A stretch of DNA of 45,568 nt, taken from positions 1-45,568 of the forward strand of contig JAISYD010000258.1 of assembly GCA_031270145.1 (NCBI GenBank), in the 5' to 3' direction. The first letter of the stretch is position 1. Every line of letters starts with the position of its first letter. Positions 12,330-22,831 of this stretch are shown in pieces. The DNA comes from Planctomycetota bacterium. Its GTDB lineage: Bacteria > Planctomycetota > SZUA-567. Both the position numbers and the translations under genes were made by a program. The notes under the pieces are model-generated. The model did no database searches and was not told the origin of the DNA. It saw only the letters and a program-made list of their open reading frames with translations.

Positions 12330-13613
12330 ATGGAAGTGTATCTCCCCGTCATACTGATGCTTTTGGGGTTGTTCCTAGGTCTACCCGTCTTCCCCTCGAT
12401 ATTCCTCGCGGTGTTGATCTATTTTCCGCTGGCCGGCAACCCCCGCGCGGCCATAGGGGTGCAGCGGCTGATCGGCGCGGCCGAGAATTCGGTCATCCTC
12501 GCCGTGCCTTTTTTTATCATGGTCGGTAGCCTGATGAACTATACGGGCATCACCCGGCGCATGCTCAATCTGGCCGATGTCCTCTCCGGCCGCTTGGCCG
12601 GCGGCTTGGCCCAGACCAACATCCTCCTCTCCACCCTCATGGGGGGCATATCCGCCTCCAACCTGGCCGATTGCGCCATGACCTGCAAAGTGCTGGCGCC
12701 GGAAATGGAGCGCCGCGGCTTCAGCCGGGAATACTCCGCCGCCGTCACCGCCGCCAGCAGCCTGATCACCCCGATCATTCCGCCGGGCATCGCCCTGATC
12801 ATCTACGGCTACGTAGCCGACGTCTCCATAGGCAGGATGTTCATGGCCGGCATCATCCCCGGCCTCTCCATCTTCCTCGCCATGGCCGTCGCCACCCACA
12901 TAATATCCCGCCGCCGAGGCTACAAGCCCAGCCGCGCGGCTTGGCCCACGCTAGGCGAATTGGCCGCGGCGGTCTGGAACGCCCTGCCCGGGCTGTCGCT
13001 GGTGCTGGTAATCATCGGCGGCATCCGCCTAGGCGTTTTCACGCCCACCGAGGCCGGGGCGGCGGCGGTGGTGTTCATCATCGCCATCGGGACCCTGGTG
13101 TACCGGGAGATGCGCCTGGAGCATCTTTATTACGCCCTGGTAGACTGCGCCCGCTCCACCGCCTCCATCATGTTGGTCATCATGGCCTGTTCCGCCTTCT
13201 CCTGGATATTGTCGTGGGAGCAGGTGACGCTCCACATCACCCGGTACATCACCGGCGTCACCGACGATCCTCGAGTTTTCCTGGCGGCGCTGAACATTTT
13301 CCTCCTGATCTGCGGCATGTTCATGGAGGGGAACGCCCTCCTCATCGTCCTGGTGCCGATCCTGAAGCCCACCGCCGTGGCCATGAACATCGACCTAGTC
13401 CAATTCGGCATCATCTTTATCATCAATCTGGCCATAGGCACCTTGACCCCGCCGATCGGGACGGTGACGCTCCTGGCCGTCAACCTGACCAATTCCCGGA
13501 TGGGGCCGTTCCTCAAGGAATTATTGCCCTATCTTGGCTGCCTGTTGTTGGTGCTGCTACTCTGTACCTATTGGCCGGCCTATGTCGCCTGGTTCCCCGA
13601 TCTGGCGCAATGA
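12330..13613 (+). CDS. TRAP transporter large permease (DctM family), first system
   Basis: Translocating subunit of the TRAP system (427 residues), an ion-coupled secondary transporter with about 12 membrane segments. Family hallmarks include the NSVILAVPFFIMVGSLMNYTGI segment, the STLMGGISAS loop, ITPIIPPGIALIIYGYVA, and GTLTPPIGTVTLLAVN near the C-terminus. A GGAGAG ribosome binding site precedes ATG 12330. It completes the first dctPQM set. No convincing terminator follows; the next 149 bases before the IS remnant look empty. Confidence 0.94.
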   Translation: MEVYLPVILMLLGLFLGLPVFPSIFLAVLIYFPLAGNPRAAIGVQRLIGAAENSVILAVPFFIMVGSLMNYTGITRRMLNLADVLSGRLAGGLAQTNILLSTLMGGISASNLADCAMTCKVLAPEMERRGFSREYSAAVTAASSLITPIIPPGIALIIYGYVADVSIGRMFMAGIIPGLSIFLAMAVATHIISRRRGYKPSRAAWPTLGELAAAVWNALPGLSLVLVIIGGIRLGVFTPTEAGAAAVVFIIAIGTLVYREMRLEHLYYALVDCARSTASIMLVIMACSAFSWILSWEQVTLHITRYITGVTDDPRVFLAALNIFLLICGMFMEGNALLIVLVPILKPTAVAMNIDLVQFGIIFIINLAIGTLTPPIGTVTLLAVNLTNSRMGPFLKELLPYLGCLLLVLLLCTYWPAYVAWFPDLAQ

Positions 13614-13762
13614 GGGATCGCGGCCGGCGGCGCGCAACAGATAGGCGACCGACGCGGCAAACCCCACCCTTGCCGTTTTCTCCCGCCTGCCGATGCTTTC
13701 CTGAATTTTTGGGAGAGTTGGCGCAGGTCGGGCCGGCTTGACCGGAAGGAAAGCGGGGCGGT

Positions 13763-14131
13763 TTGTCCGCTGTCGGCGGGATCGTGTCGGAGCGCTTGTT
13801 CGGCAAGGTCAAGAGCAAGAAGACGCGCCACTATGCTTTGAGCAAATGTTTCAACGCCGGGGAGGTTGCGAAGATCGCCCGGAATCGTTGGGGCATGGAG
13901 AATTCGCCGCATGGGATTTTGGACGCGGTGTTTCGTGAAGACGAATGCCGGGTGTGGGCAGGCTTCGCCGCCGAGAGTTTCGTGACGCTTCGTTATATGG
14001 CGCTCAATCTTCTGAAGCAAGGAACGCGAAGCAAACGCGGCGCCAAGACAAGACGCAAGGCGGTTGGAGGGGATGCAAGCCATCTCCTCGAACCGCTCAA
14101 AGGAAATTTTCAGGCGTTAGTCCTGTTATAA
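13763..14131 (+). pseudogene. ISAs1-family transposase remnant (C-terminal part)
   Basis: The frame encodes about 120 residues matching the C-terminal end of ISAs1-type (DDE) transposases: KKTRHYALSK, then RNRWGMENSPHGILDAVFRE, including the catalytic-region Glu and the N-x-LHW-like segment, then ALNLLKQ. The N-terminal two thirds, with the first catalytic aspartates, are absent. No terminal inverted repeats were recognised. It marks the left edge of the AT-richer catabolic island. An IS66-type remnant lies beyond the other edge. Confidence 0.8.
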
Positions 14132-14153
14132 ATCAAAACGATAAAAGGGGGTG

Positions 14154-14190
14154 GTCAGAATCTCCCTCACAGCCGAAAGGCGATTGAGAC
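14154..14190 (+). repeat. Solitary CRISPR-repeat-like sequence, 37 bases
   Basis: A 37-base stretch starting GTCAGAATCTCCCTCAC, with a short central stem GCC-GAAA-GGC, and ending CGATTGAGAC. Length, the small internal palindrome and the ATTGAGAC end all resemble known CRISPR repeats ending in ATTGAAAC or ATTGAGAC. Only one copy is visible, with no array and no cas gene in the window, so it may be the last relic of a locus or chance. It lies 23 bases after the ISAs1 remnant. Confidence 0.4.
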
Positions 14191-14230
14191 CGCAAGGCTT
14201 TTCCCTTTCCACGTAAAATCGCCCCAGCAT

Positions 14231-14258
14231 CTATAAATTTCAAGCGAAAATTTTATAG
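14231..14258 (+). other. AT-rich hairpin ahead of the island promoter
   Basis: CTATAAATTT and AAATTTTATAG form an inverted repeat with a one-base bulge and a 7-base loop, 17 bases upstream of the -35 element. It could stop transcription coming from the IS remnant or bind a regulator. The remaining 14132-14435 sequence holds the CRISPR-like repeat, this hairpin and the promoter. Confidence 0.35.
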
Positions 14259-14275
14259 GGAAAAATAAAATTCTC

Positions 14276-14305
14276 TTGACAAGCGGGGGAAAAATCATAC
14301 ACTAT
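14276..14305 (+). promoter_or_regulatory. Promoter of the island operon
   Basis: A perfect TTGACA is followed by TACACT after 16 bases or CACTAT after 18 bases. The AT-rich surroundings favour activity. It would transcribe the first iclR gene and probably the downstream catabolic genes, with a leader of roughly 125 bases. Confidence 0.6.
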
Positions 14306-14308
14306 GTT

Positions 14309-14327
14309 CATACGATATTACAGTATG
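14309..14327. promoter_or_regulatory. Possible regulator operator at the start site
   Basis: CATAC and GTATG arms enclose nine bases directly downstream of the -10. A further CATAC occurs at 14296-14300, so this pentamer appears in three places around the start site. This is a plausible IclR-type autoregulatory site. The evidence is only repeat symmetry and position. Confidence 0.4.
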
Positions 14328-14435
14328 AGGTTCATGGATTGTGTATGCGCTTTACATCCATGCGCCCTCGCTCAAAAAGCAACGCCTAGTTCCGGAAAAA
14401 TGCCCGCCTTTGCCGGGAAATGATGAGGTGAAACG

Positions 14436-15245
14436 GTGAACAACACCATTAAGCGGACGATGAACGTGCTGGCCCTGATTGCGGAGTCCAATCAATCGTT
14501 GAATATGGCGGAAATACGCAAGGCGCTCAATTTACCCAAAAGCACCGCCTCGGACATATTGAATTCGCTTGTGGAACTGGGAATTTTGAACTTCAACCCC
14601 GATGATGGTAATTCGTTAACGCTAGGCGAAGCGTTTTTCTGGTTGTCTGCGAAATTCGTCAACAATAACGGGCTTCTCTCGATTGCGAGAGGATGCATGC
14701 AGCCGTTGGCTGAAAAAATCGGATTATCCGTTTTCCTGTCCGTATTCAGGAATGGGAAAATGACTTTTCTTGAAAAAACCGATGCCGACAATGCATTGCA
14801 ACCTAATTATCTATCCGGAAGCGTATCTCCGCTGCACGCAAGTGCCTGCGGCAAGGCATTCTTGGCGATCCATGATTTCCCGGACATCAAGTCATTGGTG
14901 GGTTGTGAACCATTCGAGAGATTTACCAAAAATACACTGGTAAGTTATGGGGAACTTTTGATTGATATTGAAGCGGCGAGAGAGAGGAAATACAGCATTG
15001 AAAACATGGAACGGACGGATCAGATAGTGGGAGTTGCCGCCCCAATTCGACAGGCGGATAGTTCTGGAATCGCGGCCATATCGGTATTGGGTTTGTGCCA
15101 ACACATGCCTGACGACAGAATGGCCGTGATTGGATCGGAAATATCCATGGCGGCTCTGCGCATTTCCAAAAGATTGGGATTTGTGGGGAATAATGTCTTG
15201 GCGTCATTCGACGGCGCCCATGATAAACATACCCTGCGTCTATGA
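14436..15245 (+). CDS. IclR-family transcriptional regulator, upstream copy
   Basis: DNA-binding regulator (269 residues) with an N-terminal winged helix (LNMAEIRKALNLPKSTASDI, about residues 22-41) and a C-terminal IclR effector domain containing the conserved LHASACGKAFLA and VAAPIRQ segments. The start is GTG 14436 with GAGGTG upstream. It is the first gene of the island operon, 31 bases before the CoA-transferase, and probably senses the pathway substrate and controls its own promoter. A second IclR gene closes the cluster, so the pathway is bracketed by two related but clearly different regulators. The C-terminal tail of about 20 residues beyond the domain is unusual. Confidence 0.92.
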   Translation: MNNTIKRTMNVLALIAESNQSLNMAEIRKALNLPKSTASDILNSLVELGILNFNPDDGNSLTLGEAFFWLSAKFVNNNGLLSIARGCMQPLAEKIGLSVFLSVFRNGKMTFLEKTDADNALQPNYLSGSVSPLHASACGKAFLAIHDFPDIKSLVGCEPFERFTKNTLVSYGELLIDIEAARERKYSIENMERTDQIVGVAAPIRQADSSGIAAISVLGLCQHMPDDRMAVIGSEISMAALRISKRLGFVGNNVLASFDGAHDKHTLRL

Positions 15246-15276
15246 TGTGCGGGGAAGGATCGGGGAGGGAGAAAAC

Positions 15277-16455
15277 GTGATTGAAGGAGTTAGGATTCTT
15301 AGTTTTACGCATTACCTGCAAGGACCTTCGGCTGTGCAAAACTTGGCCGATTTGGGCGCCGATGTCATTAAAATCGAACCGCCCAAGGGTGCGTATGAGC
15401 GCCATTGGTCCGGGTGCAATACGTATGTCAACGGGATCAGCGTATTTTATATGCTTGCCGGACGCAACCAACGCGCCGTCGCCCTTGATTTGAAGTCCGA
15501 AGACGGGGTAAGGGTGATATATGAACTGGTGAAAAAATACGATGTCGTGGTCGAAAACTTCAAGGTTGGAGTCATGGATCGCCTGGGACTCGGCTACGAG
15601 AAGCTCAAGGAAGTCAACCCGCGCGTAATCTATTGTTCCTGCTCTGGCTATGGAGCCAGCGGACCAAAATCGAAGCAACCGGGTCAAGATCTTTTGGCGC
15701 AAGGCATGGGCGGACTGGCGGAACTGACCGGACCTGGGGATCGCCCCCCATCCGCCGTCGGGACTCCTGTCGTGGACCAGCATGCCGCTGTTCTGGCGGC
15801 CCTAGGCATTTTGGCGGCGATATATAACCGCGATAGAACCGGTGATGGCTGCAAGGTGGACAATTGCCTTCTTAACGCCGCCATAGATCTCCAACAGGAG
15901 CCCATTTGTTATTTTATGAACGGCGGCAAACTCACCGAGCGGCCGTCGACTGGCCTGAGTTCTAGGATGCATCAATCTCCATATGGGATATACAAGACGA
16001 AGGATTCCTCCATAACGTTATCCCTAACATCTTATTCCACCCTGAAGGAAATCTTTTCCCCGGGGTCTTTGGATAGTTTCAAGCCGGAAGATCAGATGGA
16101 AAACCGAATTGAATTCGACAGGGTAGTTGCGACGGAAATGCTGAAACGCACCACGGCGGAATGGACGGAAATATTCGAAAGGCATTCCATTTGGTATGCT
16201 CCGGTCAATTTTTATCCGGAACTCGTCAAGGACCCGCAGGTTATCCACAACGAGATAATATTGGAACTCGATACTCCTGAAGCCGGGCCGATCAAAGTTT
16301 TGAATCATCCCGTCCGTTACAATGGCAAGGCTCCGGAATTGCGCAGGAATCCCCCGAAATTAGGGGAGCACACCGTTGAAGTACTTAGGGAAATCGGGTA
16401 CGCCGACGAGGCGATCAAATCATTGCTTGCATCGGGAATTGCCAAAGGACTGTGA
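15277..16455 (+). CDS. Type III CoA-transferase (CaiB/BaiF/Frc family)
   Basis: Transfers CoA between an acyl-CoA donor and a free organic acid, the activation step of many catabolic routes (carnitine, oxalate, aromatic and branched dicarboxylic acids). The 392-residue length is typical. It starts VIEGVRILSFTHYLQGPSA and has LGADVIKIEPP and the conserved aspartate Asp138 in PGQDLLAQGMGGL, the residue that forms the acyl-anhydride in this family. GTG 15277 follows GGGAGAAAAC; the track ORF beginning at 15130 overlaps the regulator and is too long. The adjacent hydratase and TRAP genes suggest it activates the imported acid. The substrate is unknown; CaiB-like naming should be avoided without data. 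Confidence 0.92.
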   Translation: MIEGVRILSFTHYLQGPSAVQNLADLGADVIKIEPPKGAYERHWSGCNTYVNGISVFYMLAGRNQRAVALDLKSEDGVRVIYELVKKYDVVVENFKVGVMDRLGLGYEKLKEVNPRVIYCSCSGYGASGPKSKQPGQDLLAQGMGGLAELTGPGDRPPSAVGTPVVDQHAAVLAALGILAAIYNRDRTGDGCKVDNCLLNAAIDLQQEPICYFMNGGKLTERPSTGLSSRMHQSPYGIYKTKDSSITLSLTSYSTLKEIFSPGSLDSFKPEDQMENRIEFDRVVATEMLKRTTAEWTEIFERHSIWYAPVNFYPELVKDPQVIHNEIILELDTPEAGPIKVLNHPVRYNGKAPELRRNPPKLGEHTVEVLREIGYADEAIKSLLASGIAKGL

Positions 16456-16507
16456 CTCCGAAGGAAAGAACGATTTGTGTTTCCTGAAGCCCGGGGAGAG
16501 AGGGAAC

Positions 16508-17296
16508 ATGGACTATATCAATAAACTTGTGCGTATTGAAAAGAAAAACAAGGGCGTCTGCCTGGTGACTCTGAACAATCCGCCATTGAACCTTGTCACG
16601 CTTCCGTTGAGGGATGAATTTAATGACGCGTTGCGGAAACTGGATGTTGACGGAACCGTACGGGTAGTCGTATTGACCGGATCCGGATCGCGCGCCTTTT
16701 GCGTGGGTTCTGACGTCAAGGAATTTCCTGAAGTTTGGGACGACGTCGTGGGAAAGAAACTGCAGAAGGAGAATGAAACCTTCAACGCCATTGAATTTCT
16801 TTCTCGCCCGGTATTATGCGCCATGGAAGGCGTAGTCTGCGGCGGCGGGTTCGAAATAGCCATGGCCTGCGACATGCGGATACTGTCGGAACGGGGCAAA
16901 ATAGCCATGCCTGAAATCAATTTGGGCGTTTTTCCCGGCAGCGGCGGCCTATTCCGCCTGCCTAAGTTGGTCGGACCCTCCAAAGCCATGGAAATGATGT
17001 ATCTCGGAGAGTTCGTGGAAGCCGAGGAATGTGTGCGCATTGGATTGGTGAACCGCCTGGCCCCGGAAGGGAAAGCGGTGGAAAAGGCGTTGGAGATCGC
17101 CGAGGAAATTGCCGTCAAGCCTTTCGAGGCCGTCAAGTTAATCAAACGAGGAGTTCGAGACCTTGGCCGGAAGTCCACGGAGGAATCCTTTATTGATAAT
17201 CTCCGTTACAGTAAGGAGATATTCAAAACTCCCGATTGCGCCGAGGGTGTGGACGCTTTTCTCCATAAGCGCAAACCGGCATTCAAACAGGTATAA
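16508..17296 (+). CDS. Enoyl-CoA hydratase/isomerase (crotonase family)
   Basis: Crotonase-fold enzyme (262 residues) acting on a CoA thioester. The oxyanion-hole segments are present (SRAFCVGSDV and VVCGGGFEIAMACD). Both glutamates needed for syn-hydration are kept: Glu116 in GGGFE and Glu136 in MPEINLGVFPGSGG, which favours a true hydratase over an isomerase. ATG 16508 has GGAGAGAGGG in front; the track start at 16376 overlaps the CoA-transferase. It lies 52 bases after that gene, so the two probably act in sequence, with the CoA-activated acid (or its dehydrogenated product) being hydrated to a beta-hydroxyacyl-CoA. Confidence 0.93.
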   Translation: MDYINKLVRIEKKNKGVCLVTLNNPPLNLVTLPLRDEFNDALRKLDVDGTVRVVVLTGSGSRAFCVGSDVKEFPEVWDDVVGKKLQKENETFNAIEFLSRPVLCAMEGVVCGGGFEIAMACDMRILSERGKIAMPEINLGVFPGSGGLFRLPKLVGPSKAMEMMYLGEFVEAEECVRIGLVNRLAPEGKAVEKALEIAEEIAVKPFEAVKLIKRGVRDLGRKSTEESFIDNLRYSKEIFKTPDCAEGVDAFLHKRKPAFKQV

Positions 17297-17352
17297 TATA
17301 TTTTCGGCCGAAGCCGAAAATAATTTCATCGTTCGTGTCAGGAGGAATCAGG

Positions 17353-18330
17353 ATGAGAAAATTGTGTGGTGTCGTAATGATTGGATGCTTTTGCATTTTC
17401 GCGCTGTCCCAATCATTGGTTTACGCCGGGCAATACACATTGAAAATGTCGACGTCGCAAGGTGAAACCCATCCCCTGGTGGAGGGATTCAGGGAATGGG
17501 CGAAACGAGTGGCTATCCGCACCAATGGCAATTTGAATATCGAAGTGTATCCGAGTTCGCAACTCGGCAACGACGAAGATGTCATTGAACAGGCCATCAA
17601 CGGCCTCAACGTCGCCATCCTCACCGATGGTGCGCGCATGGCCAACTACGTGAAGGAAATGGGCATCATCATGTTGCCTTATTTCTCCGATTCATACGAC
17701 GAGTTCATGCAGGTGTGCAATTCGGCGGAATTCAAGGAATGGGAAGATCGCCTTACCAGCGAGGGCCTGAAAGTCATCAATTTCAATTGGACCGACGGCT
17801 TCCGCCATTTCCTCAATAATGTTCCGGTCCGCAAGCCCGCCGATCTGAGAGATCAGCGAGTCCGTACGGGAGGATCCCCCGTCTATATCGAATCCGTGGC
17901 GTCGCTGGGCGCTACCCCGGTCGCCATGCCGCTCACCGAGGTCTATCCCGCCGTACAGCAAAAGGCCATTGACGGAGTGGAACAACAAAACACGGCCAAC
18001 TATACCTATCGCTTTTATGAAGTGTTGCATTATCTCAATAAAACTTCGCATATCCTCCTCATCAACGGGATAGTTTGTTCCAATTCATGGTATGAGGGAA
18101 TTCCGGACGAATACAAGAAAGCCCTGACTGATGAGGCGGTGGCGATAGCGGAAGTTACCTCGAGGAAGATTCTTGGTTTGTCGGATGATTATGAGAAGAA
18201 GATGATCGAGGCGGGCATGGAATTAGTGGAAGTGGATTTGGATGCATTTAAAAAATCCAGCGAGGCGGTGTATAATAAACTGGGCTACGCCGATCTCCGT
18301 GACCGCATATACAAACAGATAGGAAAATGA
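17353..18330 (+). CDS. TRAP transporter substrate-binding protein (DctP family), island system
   Basis: Periplasmic receptor (325 residues) with a signal peptide ending near SLVYAG and the DctP core: YPSSQLGNDEDVIEQ, RDQRVRTGGSP (conserved arginine) and LTEVYPAVQQKAIDGVEQQN. ATG 17353 follows AGGAGGAATCAGG; the track ORF begins six codons earlier. Its stop overlaps the dctQ start (ATGA), so the three transporter genes are coupled. It is clearly different in sequence from the first DctP at 10.6 kb and shares the lower GC of the island, so it likely carries the acid handled by the neighbouring CoA-transferase. Confidence 0.93.
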   Translation: MRKLCGVVMIGCFCIFALSQSLVYAGQYTLKMSTSQGETHPLVEGFREWAKRVAIRTNGNLNIEVYPSSQLGNDEDVIEQAINGLNVAILTDGARMANYVKEMGIIMLPYFSDSYDEFMQVCNSAEFKEWEDRLTSEGLKVINFNWTDGFRHFLNNVPVRKPADLRDQRVRTGGSPVYIESVASLGATPVAMPLTEVYPAVQQKAIDGVEQQNTANYTYRFYEVLHYLNKTSHILLINGIVCSNSWYEGIPDEYKKALTDEAVAIAEVTSRKILGLSDDYEKKMIEAGMELVEVDLDAFKKSSEAVYNKLGYADLRDRIYKQIGK

Positions 18331-18857
18331 TGTTAGCCGGCATCAGACGAGTCTACGGTTTTGTGACGGCCGCCGAAGCCATGATAATCCAGGCATTTGT
18401 CATTGTCATCGCCTTCATGGTTTTCATTTCCGCCATGGCGAGGACTCTGGGGTATCCTTTGAATTGGAGTGTAGATATTTCCTTGCTGTTGCTTGGCTGG
18501 ACGGTCGGCCTCGGAGGCGACTTGGCATTGCGCCGGAATCGGGTGGTGAGCGTCGATATGATAGTGAATCTTTTTCCATTGAAAATCAGGAAAATCATCG
18601 CCCTTCTCTGGTGTATGGTCATGGCCGTTTTCCTGATATACCTCGTTAAGTTTGGCATTGATTTATGCCTCTCCAATCGAAAAAGAGTGTACCAGACTCT
18701 TCAAATAGGGTATATTTGGGCGACGGCGTCTGTTCCGACCGGAGCTTTTCTAATGTTGGTGACCACTGTGATTCGCTTTTTCAAGATATGGTTGGATATG
18801 CCGTTGACAACTCCGGATGCCGGTTCGAACGACGACGCGCCGGGAGGGTCGTTCTGA
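18327..18857 (+). CDS. TRAP transporter small permease (DctQ family), island system
   Basis: Small membrane subunit (176 residues) with about four hydrophobic helices (near 20-40, 50-68, 88-110 and 128-150). NWSVDISLLLLGWTVGLGGDLALRRN is the typical conserved central stretch. It overlaps dctP by 4 bases and dctM by 1 base, which implies coupled translation at fixed ratios. It ends in a short hydrophilic tail. Confidence 0.9.
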   Translation: MMLAGIRRVYGFVTAAEAMIIQAFVIVIAFMVFISAMARTLGYPLNWSVDISLLLLGWTVGLGGDLALRRNRVVSVDMIVNLFPLKIRKIIALLWCMVMAVFLIYLVKFGIDLCLSNRKRVYQTLQIGYIWATASVPTGAFLMLVTTVIRFFKIWLDMPLTTPDAGSNDDAPGGSF

Positions 18858-20140
18858 TGCTTATTGTGACATTGGCGTTCGTTGTATTTCTCGTTTTCGG
18901 CATGCCGGTGGCGTTTGTCATAGGCATATCTGGTTTTCTATATTTTCTTTGCAATTCGGATGTTCCCACCGCCATTGCGGTACAGCGGTTTCTTGCGACT
19001 ACCCAATCGTTTACCATGCTGGCCATACCGCTTTTCATTTTTGCGGGACATTTGATGAATCACACGGGGATCACGCAACGTATGGTAAAACTTTCCGATG
19101 TCCTTACCGGTCACATGTACGGGAACATTGCGCAAATCAGTTGCGTCTTGTCTACGCTGATGGGCGGCGTGTCGGGTTCGGCCGTTGCCGACGCCGCCAT
19201 GGAATCCAGGGTTCTCGGACCAGCTATGATCAAGCGGGGGTATTCGCGCGGATGGAGTGCCGCCATCAACGGACTGTCTTCAATCATCACCTCCACAATT
19301 CCTCCGAGCATGGGGCTTATCCTGTTCGGATCCGTGGGAGAAGTATCGATAGGGCGACTTTTCGCCGGAGGCATTCTCCCGGGAATTCTCATGATGGCGG
19401 CACTTATGGCAACGGTATCGATTTCCGCCAGGCGTCGTAATTACCTTCCCGAGAGGGCGCGCGGACCAACTTTGCGCGAAGTGTTCACGTCCTTCTATGA
19501 TTGTTTGTGGGCGTTGTTATTCCCGATTATTCTCATTTTCGGCATACGTTTCGGATTGTTCACTCCGTCTGAGGCCGGAGCTTTCGCCGTCGTGTATGCC
19601 GTTTTCGTGGGGAGGGTCATACATCGGGAACTCACTTGGGAAAAATTTCGTACGGCGGTTTTCGAAAGCGGAGTGGACATTGGCGCAGTAATGCTGATTA
19701 TCGCCTGCGCCGGCATTTTCGGATTCGGGATAGTATATGACCGCGTTCCCCAGTTTTTGGCCGGATTTCTTATTTCTTTTACCAATAATTCCTATTTAAT
19801 GTTTCTGGCGATTATCATATTCCTGATCTTGGCCGGTATGTTCATGGAAACCACTGTTATAACTCTGTTAATGACGCCCATACTCCTGCCTGTGGCGATA
19901 AAGGTGGGAATTGATCCGGTTCATTTCGGCCTTGTGATGATGACGACGGTTCAGCTTGGCATCATGAGTCCGCCGGTTGGCGTGGCCTTATATACCGTGT
20001 CTGGAATATTGGAATGCAGCCCCCAAGAGACGGCGCGGGAGGCAATCCCGTTTTTTATCGCCATTCTTGTTCTCATTGCGGTTATGGTTTTTTGGCCGGG
20101 TCTGGTCCTATTCATTCCCAATCTGATTTTTGGCGTTTAG
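18857..20140 (+). CDS. TRAP transporter large permease (DctM family), island system
   Basis: Large translocating subunit (427 residues) starting MLIVTLAFVVFLVFGMPVAF, which is typical for DctM. Conserved parts include TMLAIPLFIFAGHLMNHTGI, STLMGGVSGSAVADAAME, ITSTIPPSMGLILFGSVG and GIMSPPVGVALYTVSGI. ATG 18857 overlaps the dctQ stop and is preceded by GGGAGGG. The track ORF from 18665 is an upstream extension inside dctQ. With the two preceding genes it forms a complete TRAP transporter dedicated to the island. Confidence 0.94.
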   Translation: MLIVTLAFVVFLVFGMPVAFVIGISGFLYFLCNSDVPTAIAVQRFLATTQSFTMLAIPLFIFAGHLMNHTGITQRMVKLSDVLTGHMYGNIAQISCVLSTLMGGVSGSAVADAAMESRVLGPAMIKRGYSRGWSAAINGLSSIITSTIPPSMGLILFGSVGEVSIGRLFAGGILPGILMMAALMATVSISARRRNYLPERARGPTLREVFTSFYDCLWALLFPIILIFGIRFGLFTPSEAGAFAVVYAVFVGRVIHRELTWEKFRTAVFESGVDIGAVMLIIACAGIFGFGIVYDRVPQFLAGFLISFTNNSYLMFLAIIIFLILAGMFMETTVITLLMTPILLPVAIKVGIDPVHFGLVMMTTVQLGIMSPPVGVALYTVSGILECSPQETAREAIPFFIAILVLIAVMVFWPGLVLFIPNLIFGV

Positions 20141-20148
20141 GGTTTGTT

Positions 20149-20228
20149 CGAAATAACTATGCCGAATTCATCGGCAAAGGCGCTGGTGCGACTCGTTCCG
20201 CGCGGATCCTGGCGATACAGTTATTTCG
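20149..20228. repeat. Inverted repeat spacer between dctM and the flavoprotein gene
   Basis: CGAAATAACT (20149-20158) and its exact complement AGTTATTTCG (20219-20228) flank 60 bases that contain a small GCCGA/TCGGC hairpin (20161-20175). The 80-base unit resembles a small non-coding mobile repeat or a processing/attenuation element. It interrupts an otherwise tightly packed operon. Confidence 0.5.
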
Positions 20229-20260
20229 TAACATATTTTGGTTGATTGAGAGGCCGGAAC

Positions 20261-21949
20261 ATGGAACGTTTGCTGACGGACGTGCTGGTGATTGGCGGCG
20301 GCGGCGCCGCAATGCGGGCCGCCATCGCCGCCTGCGATGCGGGAGTATCTGTCCTGATGGCGGTTAAAGGCGGAACGGGAGGCGGAGCCACCGGGTTCGG
20401 GGTGTCGGAAATGGCGGGATACAATTCTCCGGACGGCGCCGTCGATCCATCGGATAGTCCGGAAGCGTATTATGACGACATCATAGAGGCGGGAATGGGT
20501 ATGGCCATTCCGGACGTTGCCCAAGTGGTGGCGGACAACGCCGAAGCGACGGTCCGGCAACTGGAAGAATGGGGCGTGCGTTATGAGCGCAATCCGGATG
20601 GCGGGCTTTATGCTTTCAAGAGTTGTTACTCCAACAAAGCGCGTACCCATGTTATTAAGGGCCACGGGGAACCAATTGTCAAGGCGATGGATGAACAAAT
20701 CGGTAAGCGCGACATATCAATAATCGAAAATATCCAGGTGGTGTCCTTGACGATCAGGGACGGCATGTGTGTTGGAGCTGTAGCCGTGACGCGGAATGGT
20801 GGTTATTTGTTCATCTCGGCCAAGGCGACGGTATTGGCGACCGGCGGCGCTTCCCGGATAATGGCCAAGAATATGAATCCCCCCGAGGTTACCGGGGACG
20901 GCTATGCGATGGCTTTCAAAGCCGGCGCCGAGTTGATTAATATGGAATTTATGCAGGCCGGGATCGGATTTATCTATCCGGCCGTAAGCCTTATCAACGC
21001 CTATATATGGGGTGGACATCCGACTCTACGCAATGTTGAGGGGAAGGAATTCATGTCCTCGCTTCCGGCTGGCGTTAATTGGAAGGATGTCATGGATGAA
21101 CACCGCAGGCATTTCCCTTTCAGTTCTCGGGATATTTCCAGGCATCTGGAAGTATGCATACAACGAGAAATATCGGATGGAAGGGGAACCGCGAACGGCG
21201 GCGTATACGCCGATTTCACAATGATGACGGATGCGTATGTCGGCGGCCTCTCGAATGAATACGGCATTCATCGCATGTGGCCCTTGGCGAAGGATTATTT
21301 CCTTTCGAAAAAGATAAGGGTTGACGCGGACAAAAAGACGGAAATCGCCTGTTTTTCCCATGCCATAAATGGCGGCGTCAGGATTGACGCGAACGCTGAA
21401 ACTTCCATACCCGGATTATACGCCGCCGGAGAAACGGCGGGCGGTCCGCATGGAGCGGATCGGCTTGGCGGAAACATGCTGGTGACATGCCAGGTATTTG
21501 GACGAATCGCTGGGGAACGGGCAGCCGCAGTGTCAGCATCCAGTCATGCGCATGCCGCCGAGCTCGCCGATTTCAGGAACGCCCTCGATGAGACGAGGAA
21601 TATCCTGTCCCGAAAAATCGACGCGTGCGCCATTCGCGGCGAACTGTCGGCGATGACGCAAAATTGCCTTTTGGTCAGGCGTACTGCCGCCGGACTCGAT
21701 TCGCTTTCGCGACGCATTGACGGACTTGAAATGCAAATATTGGCGGCGCCGGGTTCCGATACTGTCCATCCTGAAAATATGGAAACGGCAAATCTCCTGT
21801 TATGCGCGAAAATTATGGCGTATTCCGCCATGTGCCGCGAGGAAAGCCGCGGCAGCCATTTCCGCGAGGACTTCCCCGTCGTTAATCCTAACTTTGGGAA
21901 GCCCAGGATCGTTGACAAAAGAATATTTCCGACTCGTATTCTCGAATAA
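20261..21949 (+). CDS. FAD-dependent oxidoreductase, fumarate reductase/SdhA-like flavoprotein
   Basis: Soluble flavoprotein (562 residues) of the FAD-binding 2 family. The N-terminal Rossmann motif GGGGAAMRAAIAA (12-24), the GGASRIM and late GPHGADRLGGNML (about 394-407) elements and the C-terminal ESRGSHFREDFP motif place it with SdhA, FrdA, aspartate oxidase and AprA. Fumarate-reductase substrate motifs are not conserved: QFHPTG is replaced by MQAGIGF, RGEGG is not seen, and the covalent-FAD His motif is absent. No signal peptide, FMN-binding domain or adjacent Fe-S subunit is present. It probably catalyses a cytoplasmic dehydrogenation or enoate reduction in the island pathway. ATG 20261 follows GAGAGG; the track start is a TTG 15 bases earlier. 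Confidence 0.88.
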   Translation: MERLLTDVLVIGGGGAAMRAAIAACDAGVSVLMAVKGGTGGGATGFGVSEMAGYNSPDGAVDPSDSPEAYYDDIIEAGMGMAIPDVAQVVADNAEATVRQLEEWGVRYERNPDGGLYAFKSCYSNKARTHVIKGHGEPIVKAMDEQIGKRDISIIENIQVVSLTIRDGMCVGAVAVTRNGGYLFISAKATVLATGGASRIMAKNMNPPEVTGDGYAMAFKAGAELINMEFMQAGIGFIYPAVSLINAYIWGGHPTLRNVEGKEFMSSLPAGVNWKDVMDEHRRHFPFSSRDISRHLEVCIQREISDGRGTANGGVYADFTMMTDAYVGGLSNEYGIHRMWPLAKDYFLSKKIRVDADKKTEIACFSHAINGGVRIDANAETSIPGLYAAGETAGGPHGADRLGGNMLVTCQVFGRIAGERAAAVSASSHAHAAELADFRNALDETRNILSRKIDACAIRGELSAMTQNCLLVRRTAAGLDSLSRRIDGLEMQILAAPGSDTVHPENMETANLLLCAKIMAYSAMCREESRGSHFREDFPVVNPNFGKPRIVDKRIFPTRILE

Positions 21950-21952
21950 GTG

Positions 21953-22087
21953 ATGAACGCATCAATCCATATTCGGAACAATGCGTTGATTCTCGCGCTC
22001 GCCCATTTGCGCGCGGAAGCCGCATTTTCCCGGCATTGCTCCAACCGCCCGATTGACGGGTCGGTGGCAATTTCCATCGAGGGATGA
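21953..22087 (+). CDS. Possible 44-residue protein filling the gap before iclR
   Basis: This ORF, absent from the track, starts 3 bases after the flavoprotein stop (ATG 21953, or GTG 21950 directly adjoining it) and its TGA directly abuts the ATG of the second iclR. It encodes a 44-residue protein with a short hydrophobic run (ALILALAHL). It has no recognisable motif. The exact tiling suggests a coupled small protein or translational bridge, but a gap this short could be open by chance. A 7-base inverted repeat (AACGCAT at 21956-21962, ATGCGTT at 21981-21987) inside it could instead be an operator. Confidence 0.3.
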   Translation: MNASIHIRNNALILALAHLRAEAAFSRHCSNRPIDGSVAISIEG

Positions 22088-22831
22088 ATGATCAACAGCG
22101 TGATCAGGGCCATTGGAATACTCTATCTGTTCCGCGAACATAAGCGCCTGTCGTTGGCCGAGATTGCCGATTTGAGCGGCTTGCATAAAACCACCGCCCA
22201 CGGCTTGGTTCTTACCCTCCTTTCGGAACATTTTTTAGAACAGAACAAAAGGACGAGGCGCTATTCGTTGGGTGCAACGTTGTTTGAACTTGGCGGTCTG
22301 TACAGAGCCCGGCTCGACGCTTTCGGATTCTGTCTTCCCTATATGCGCGAATTGAGCCAGATCACCGGGAAGACGGTTCAACTCGCCACTCTTGTCGACA
22401 GCGATGTCGTATATCTTTCCAGGGTGGTAACCAAGGACTTTTTGGGTTTTTCCGTGGCCGACGGGGTAAGAAGAGCCGCACACTGTACCTCAACGGGAAA
22501 AGCCATGCTTGCATTGCTTGCCGACGCGGATCTGGACGGAATATACCCGACCGACGATTTGCGCGCTCGGACCTCTCACAGCATACGAACGCGTGAAGGA
22601 TTGAGGGAAAATATAAGAAAGATACGGGAGCAAAAATATGCTGTGGATTATCAGGAGGCGGAATTGGGATTGTGCGGTATGGCGATTGGTTTTCGGGCAG
22701 ACCGCCCCATGGCCATTTCCATTTCTTGTACCGCCGACATCATGGATAGCGGACAAAGCCGCGCCTATATAGAGCCGTTACTTGAACTGCGTTGCAAAAT
22801 TCAAGAACAATTCGGCGCCGTTTCGATATAA
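22088..22831 (+). CDS. IclR-family transcriptional regulator, downstream copy
   Basis: Second IclR regulator of the island (247 residues), with a winged helix (LSLAEIADLSGLHKTTAHGL, about 20-39) and an effector domain with VRRAAHCTSTGKAMLA and the GLCGMAIGFRAD segment. It starts at ATG 22088, with GAGGG upstream, immediately after the 44-codon ORF. It reads in the same direction as the operon, so it may be co-transcribed with the catabolic genes or have its own promoter. It differs clearly from the first IclR, so a recent duplication is unlikely. It is the last intact gene before the IS66 remnant. Confidence 0.92.
   Translation: MINSVIRAIGILYLFREHKRLSLAEIADLSGLHKTTAHGLVLTLLSEHFLEQNKRTRRYSLGATLFELGGLYRARLDAFGFCLPYMRELSQITGKTVQLATLVDSDVVYLSRVVTKDFLGFSVADGVRRAAHCTSTGKAMLALLADADLDGIYPTDDLRARTSHSIRTREGLRENIRKIREQKYAVDYQEAELGLCGMAIGFRADRPMAISISCTADIMDSGQSRAYIEPLLELRCKIQEQFGAVSI

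Follow-up and report, generated by a model that had tools for sequence, protein, structure and literature searches.

A lone CRISPR repeat, probably the relic of a lost array, beside a low-GC catabolic segment in an uncultured Planctomycetota lineage

Introduction

CRISPR arrays shrink by recombination between their identical repeats, and collapse of an array to one repeat is an expected outcome (PMC8047081). Degraded CRISPR loci have been described in Escherichia and Salmonella, with loci and cas genes lost beside IS elements and insertion of a metabolic operon that replaced a CRISPR (PMC2886076). CRISPR repeats also occur outside arrays, in intergenic positions, as the ectopic repeats of CreTA and scaRNA; these are strongly degenerated, co-occur with their cas systems, and carry guides that match a target (PMC9458426).

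Here, we describe a 37-nt sequence at position 14,154 of a 45,568-nucleotide stretch of DNA from a Planctomycetota bacterium (the window). The locus resembles the collapsed or degraded loci of Escherichia and Salmonella (PMC2886076; collapse, PMC8047081) in that a single repeat is left or the locus lost, no cas genes were detected, and IS and metabolic-operon insertions lie nearby, but loss is proven there by orthologous intact loci, whereas no orthologous array was found for the window. It resembles the CreTA and scaRNA repeats in being a CRISPR repeat in an intergenic position outside an array; however, the degeneration, accompanying cas system, and target-matching guide that characterize those elements are not seen at 14,154.

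Results

The 37-mer corresponds to the repeat of a CRISPR array in a same-family genome

The sequence at 14,154–14,190 on the plus strand, GTCAGAATCTCCCTCACAGCCGAAAGGCGATTGAGAC, is 37 nt long. It contains a GCC-GAAA-GGC stem, begins with GTC and ends with GAC, and has a handle-like 3' terminus, ATTGAGAC. A length in the CRISPR range, an ATTGA(A/G)AC-type 3' end, and a short internal stem together give it the form of a typical CRISPR repeat, and the letters of the window confirm all three features on which the original prediction was built. As RNA, the 37-mer is predicted to form a small hairpin (−9.3 kcal/mol, z −1.9); the sequence around it shows no unusual folding.

We scanned 84,980 bacterial and archaeal genomes with the degenerate pattern TCCCNNNCAGCCNAAAGGCNATTGAGA, and all 12 matches fell on one contig, JAISXA010000250.1, of the Planctomycetota MAG Nc350_bin156. 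This genome (G015) belongs to the GTDB family of the window and to a different genus. The contig (C256) carries an array of 37-nt units, CCGAGAATCTCCCCCACAGCCGAAAGGCGATTGAGAC, comprising 12 near-identical units and a degenerate terminal (13th) unit, with spacers of 35–40 nt that are all different; terminal repeats of arrays are often degenerate (PMC8047081). The lone copy agrees with this repeat at 33 of 37 positions and differs at bases 1–3 and 14 only, with GAATCTCCC-C/T-CACAGCCGAAAGGCGATTGAGA otherwise invariant between them. Because the positions immediately adjoining the 37-nt register are not constant from unit to unit, the repeat in G015 is itself 37 nt long, in the register of the lone copy. 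The likeness thus extends to length, register, GCC-GAAA-GGC core, and ATTGAGAC end, whereas the window has one unit and no spacers. Given this same-register match to the repeat of a 12- or 13-unit array, in which near-identical units are regularly spaced by unique spacers, the 37-mer is, as judged from its sequence, a genuine CRISPR repeat, belonging to a repeat family present in the uncultured Planctomycetota lineage of the window. The original reading of the sequence as CRISPR-repeat-like is supported.

G015 has a second array, of eight units, on contig C47, where the 37-nt repeat GTAGCACGATGCCTCTTACCCCACTGGGGATTGAGAC also ends in ATTGAGAC and cas1-cas2 adjoin (Pfam). One spacer of this array and one of the C256 array, whose repeats differ, have CGTACTCGTCCCA in common, which suggests that both arrays took spacers from related invaders with a common target; no protospacer for the shared motif was found in viral contigs. 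On C47, a gene for an SNF2-type helicase related to the DpdE/DrmD/ZorD helicases precedes cas1-cas2 and the array, and no effector was recognized on the contig.

The repeat is solitary at its locus and has few further copies in the genome

At up to three mismatches, the window contains a single copy of the 37-mer (shuffle expectation 0). No second repeat lies at an array-like distance from it: the best other match within ≈230 bp reaches 18 of 37 positions on the plus strand and 17 of 37 on the minus strand, and even with degenerate copies nearby included, the locus does not hold two repeats split by a spacer. The sequence in the first-spacer position (14,191–14,228, plus strand) shows no sign of being a spacer, as no repeat follows within 230 nt, phage records gave no match, and its longest seed in the window, 8 nt, equals that of control 40-mers. 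The search of the flanks for protospacer hits that had been proposed with the original prediction was run against phage records and came back empty, and no spacer remnant was recognized in either flank.

The genome of the window (G000), a MAG with an estimated completeness of 84.8%, comprises 369 contigs totaling 2.96 Mb and has no assembled array. A near-intact second copy, GTCGGAATCTCCCCCACAGCCGAAAGGCGATTGAGA, occupies the final 36 bases of contig C70 (10,795–10,830), which stops one base short of the end of the repeat; it matches the lone copy at 34 of 36 positions. On contig C160 (6188–6209), a 20/22 match to the 3' part of the repeat lies where a truncated YdiF/FadX-like CoA-transferase gene breaks off. 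In a simulated 3-Mb sequence of similar composition, the best matches were 23 to 24 of 37 positions and 17 to 18 of the last 22, so the C70 copy, the array of the relative, and probably the C160 piece exceed chance (maxima 24/37 and 18/22). The C70 copy is thus certainly a real repeat copy and the C160 piece probably a real repeat fragment. The statement that the 37-mer occurs once is thus accurate for the window and not for the genome; of the outcomes that had been named as refuting the original reading, a sequence matching none of the repeat classes or an abundance of genomic copies without spacing, neither was found. Because the C70 copy sits at a contig end, the genome may still hold an array at another site, and this copy may be the edge or entry of an array left unresolved by the assembly. 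The C70 copy lies upstream of a corA-like gene.

An ISAs1 remnant and a compositional border flank the repeat

To the left, at 13,763–14,125 on the plus strand, lies a degenerate 3' remnant of an ISAs1-family IS, ending in the right end ...TTAGTCCTG. Its transposase matches NCBIfam NF033564 (transpos_ISAs1; E = 1.8e-15), below the curated cut-off, and DDE_Tnp_1 (E = 1.2e-4). The IS right end was placed at ≈14,125, the point beyond which the sequence no longer resembles five other copies of the element. The next 28 nt (14,126–14,153, plus strand), AT-rich and then G-rich, are non-IS by this alignment and constitute a putative leader end or spacer remnant, with no other match in the genome itself or in phage records. 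The claim that the 37-mer stands next to an IS remnant is thus correct, at a distance of 28 nt. An identity of the 37-mer as an IS end was considered and rejected, as the six aligned IS copies diverge after ≈14,125. Farther left, an intergenic stretch of 71 to 73 nt (13,662–13,732) is 88 to 89% identical to two places in G015 (contigs C65 and C69) and is probably another mobile-element fragment.

To the right of the repeat, GC content falls from 0.62 to 0.50, stays at ≈0.50 to 0.54 until ≈22.8 kb, and then rises to 0.67 at alaS. The lone repeat lies at the left border of this low-GC segment of catabolic genes (14,191–22,831), which is set between high-GC core genes and looks laterally acquired. 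The segment encodes two flanking IclR regulators, a CoA-transferase, an enoyl-CoA hydratase, a TRAP transporter, and a flavoprotein, names that, except for the first IclR, come from reading of the ORFs without a family search. The first gene (14,436–15,245, plus strand) is an IclR-family regulator (Pfam IclR_C, 4.8e-26; HTH_IclR, 5.3e-11), preceded by a sigma-70-like promoter, TTGACA-16-TACACT (14,276–14,303, plus strand; 10 of 12 matches), which lies 3' of the lone repeat and separate from it. No orthologous locus was found in same-genus genomes; the lgt neighborhoods of two of them (G001 and G002) lack the other genes of the window.

Searches for cas genes and for the repeat in other sequences

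Cas1 was found neither in the genome of the window nor in six same-genus genomes, Cas3-HD neither in the former nor in G015, and no RAMP gene was found in the former, which, at 84.8% completeness, may hold cas genes or an array in its unassembled part, the missing 15% limiting these negative results.

Searches with the repeat gave no match in Escherichia coli and 17-nt chance matches only in phages. The 21-mer matches in four viral contigs were discarded as chance or coding sequence, because they are single copies with unrelated flanks, and longer repeat patterns had no match in viral contigs. A match to a Sinorhizobium plasmid (85.7–87.5% identity, E 0.07 to 0.4) is ordinary sequence and not an array. 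An Rfam search of 13,000–15,600 yielded nothing above noise.

Discussion

We consider the 37-mer to be probably a relic, the last repeat remaining after the loss of an array. The observations behind this reading are the identity of the repeat, its isolated position in the assembly, the failure to detect cas genes, and the adjoining IS and border in composition. Three origins had been offered in the original prediction, and with no repeat at array spacing, no cas genes found, and the IS remnant and border adjoining, a lost-array relic is the best fit. A trapped repeat carried with the island could not be separated from it, and an origin as an unrelated hairpin is rejected on account of the spaced array repeat in the relative. 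An array once present at this locus, or carried in with neighboring DNA, would have lost all of its spacers. Recombination or slippage between the first and last repeats would leave exactly one repeat; alternatively, a deletion may have accompanied insertion of the adjacent ISAs1 element or acquisition of the catabolic segment. We infer rather than observe both the presence of an array at this exact spot, for which no relative with an intact orthologous array was found, and the route of its collapse. The lone repeat is probably without function now.

An assembly artefact, in which the assembler reduced a real array to one repeat or wrongly joined two contigs across a shared repeat, strikes us as unlikely. 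The MAG is fragmented, the C70 copy ends one base short at a contig end, as when an assembler halts within an array, the C160 piece likewise lies at a broken edge, and composition is unlike on the two sides of the lone repeat; moreover, the 22-base 3' part that is identical in the lone and C70 copies would permit a join at small k. What lowers the probability of an artefact is that 2 of 36 positions distinguish the lone repeat from the C70 copy, so that it is not simply that copy acting as a bridge, and that the contig runs into high-GC core genes on both sides, with the low-GC segment returning to them at its far side, on the same contig, without any repeat. The flanks abutting the lone repeat are, furthermore, found nowhere else in the assembly.

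We think it very unlikely that the locus is a minimal leader-repeat unit, a spacer-less CRISPR still able to acquire spacers. The repeat is full length, at 37 nt, with intact GTC and GAC ends, its 5' flank is AT-rich as in leaders, and naive adaptation after array collapse has been discussed (PMC8047081), but the failure to find Cas1 in this genome or in the six others of its genus argues against acquisition, as does the IS that cuts the 5' flank after 28 nt.

Still less probable is an ectopic repeat that gives rise to a crRNA-like regulator, similar to CreA or scaRNA, of a neighbor such as iclR. Such roles of ectopic repeats are known (PMC9458426), and the lone repeat is intergenic, upstream of the regulator gene and co-oriented with it. 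However, no cas effector was found in the genome, the fold of the surrounding stretch is unremarkable, and known ectopic repeats are strongly degenerated (PMC9458426), which the lone repeat is not. A CreA-like guide is without support because the downstream sequence has no phage-record match and no seed above 8 nt in the window, no better than controls. We give only a marginal chance to the specific version in which the undegenerated repeat, in a genus poor in cas genes, works ectopically, and a cas system encoded elsewhere, in the missing 15% or in trans, uses it to make a single guide RNA controlling the neighboring catabolic regulator. If the lone repeat were shown to be in use, it would exemplify a repeat retained for a regulatory role.

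An origin outside CRISPR, as an IS end, a REP or MITE element, or an unrelated regulatory hairpin, can be dismissed as barely conceivable, for although an IS adjoins and the sequence forms a small hairpin (z −1.9), the IS similarity ends 28 bp before the 37-mer, the genome holds just two or three copies, Rfam gives no match at a usable score, and the same sequence serves as a spaced array repeat in a relative.

Read as the relic of a lost array, the lone repeat places a CRISPR repeat family in an uncultured family of Planctomycetota and informs genome history rather than defining a new type of system. A step of CRISPR loss within the family is likely: members in other genera keep cas1 and arrays, and searches of seven genomes from the genus of the window turned up no Cas1. 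Because solitary repeats normally escape array finders, relics of this kind can locate lost immunity.

As a separate observation, one genome of the same genus (G003), in which neither Cas1 nor an array was seen, carries, on contig C429, a RAMP-rich cluster of type III effector genes.
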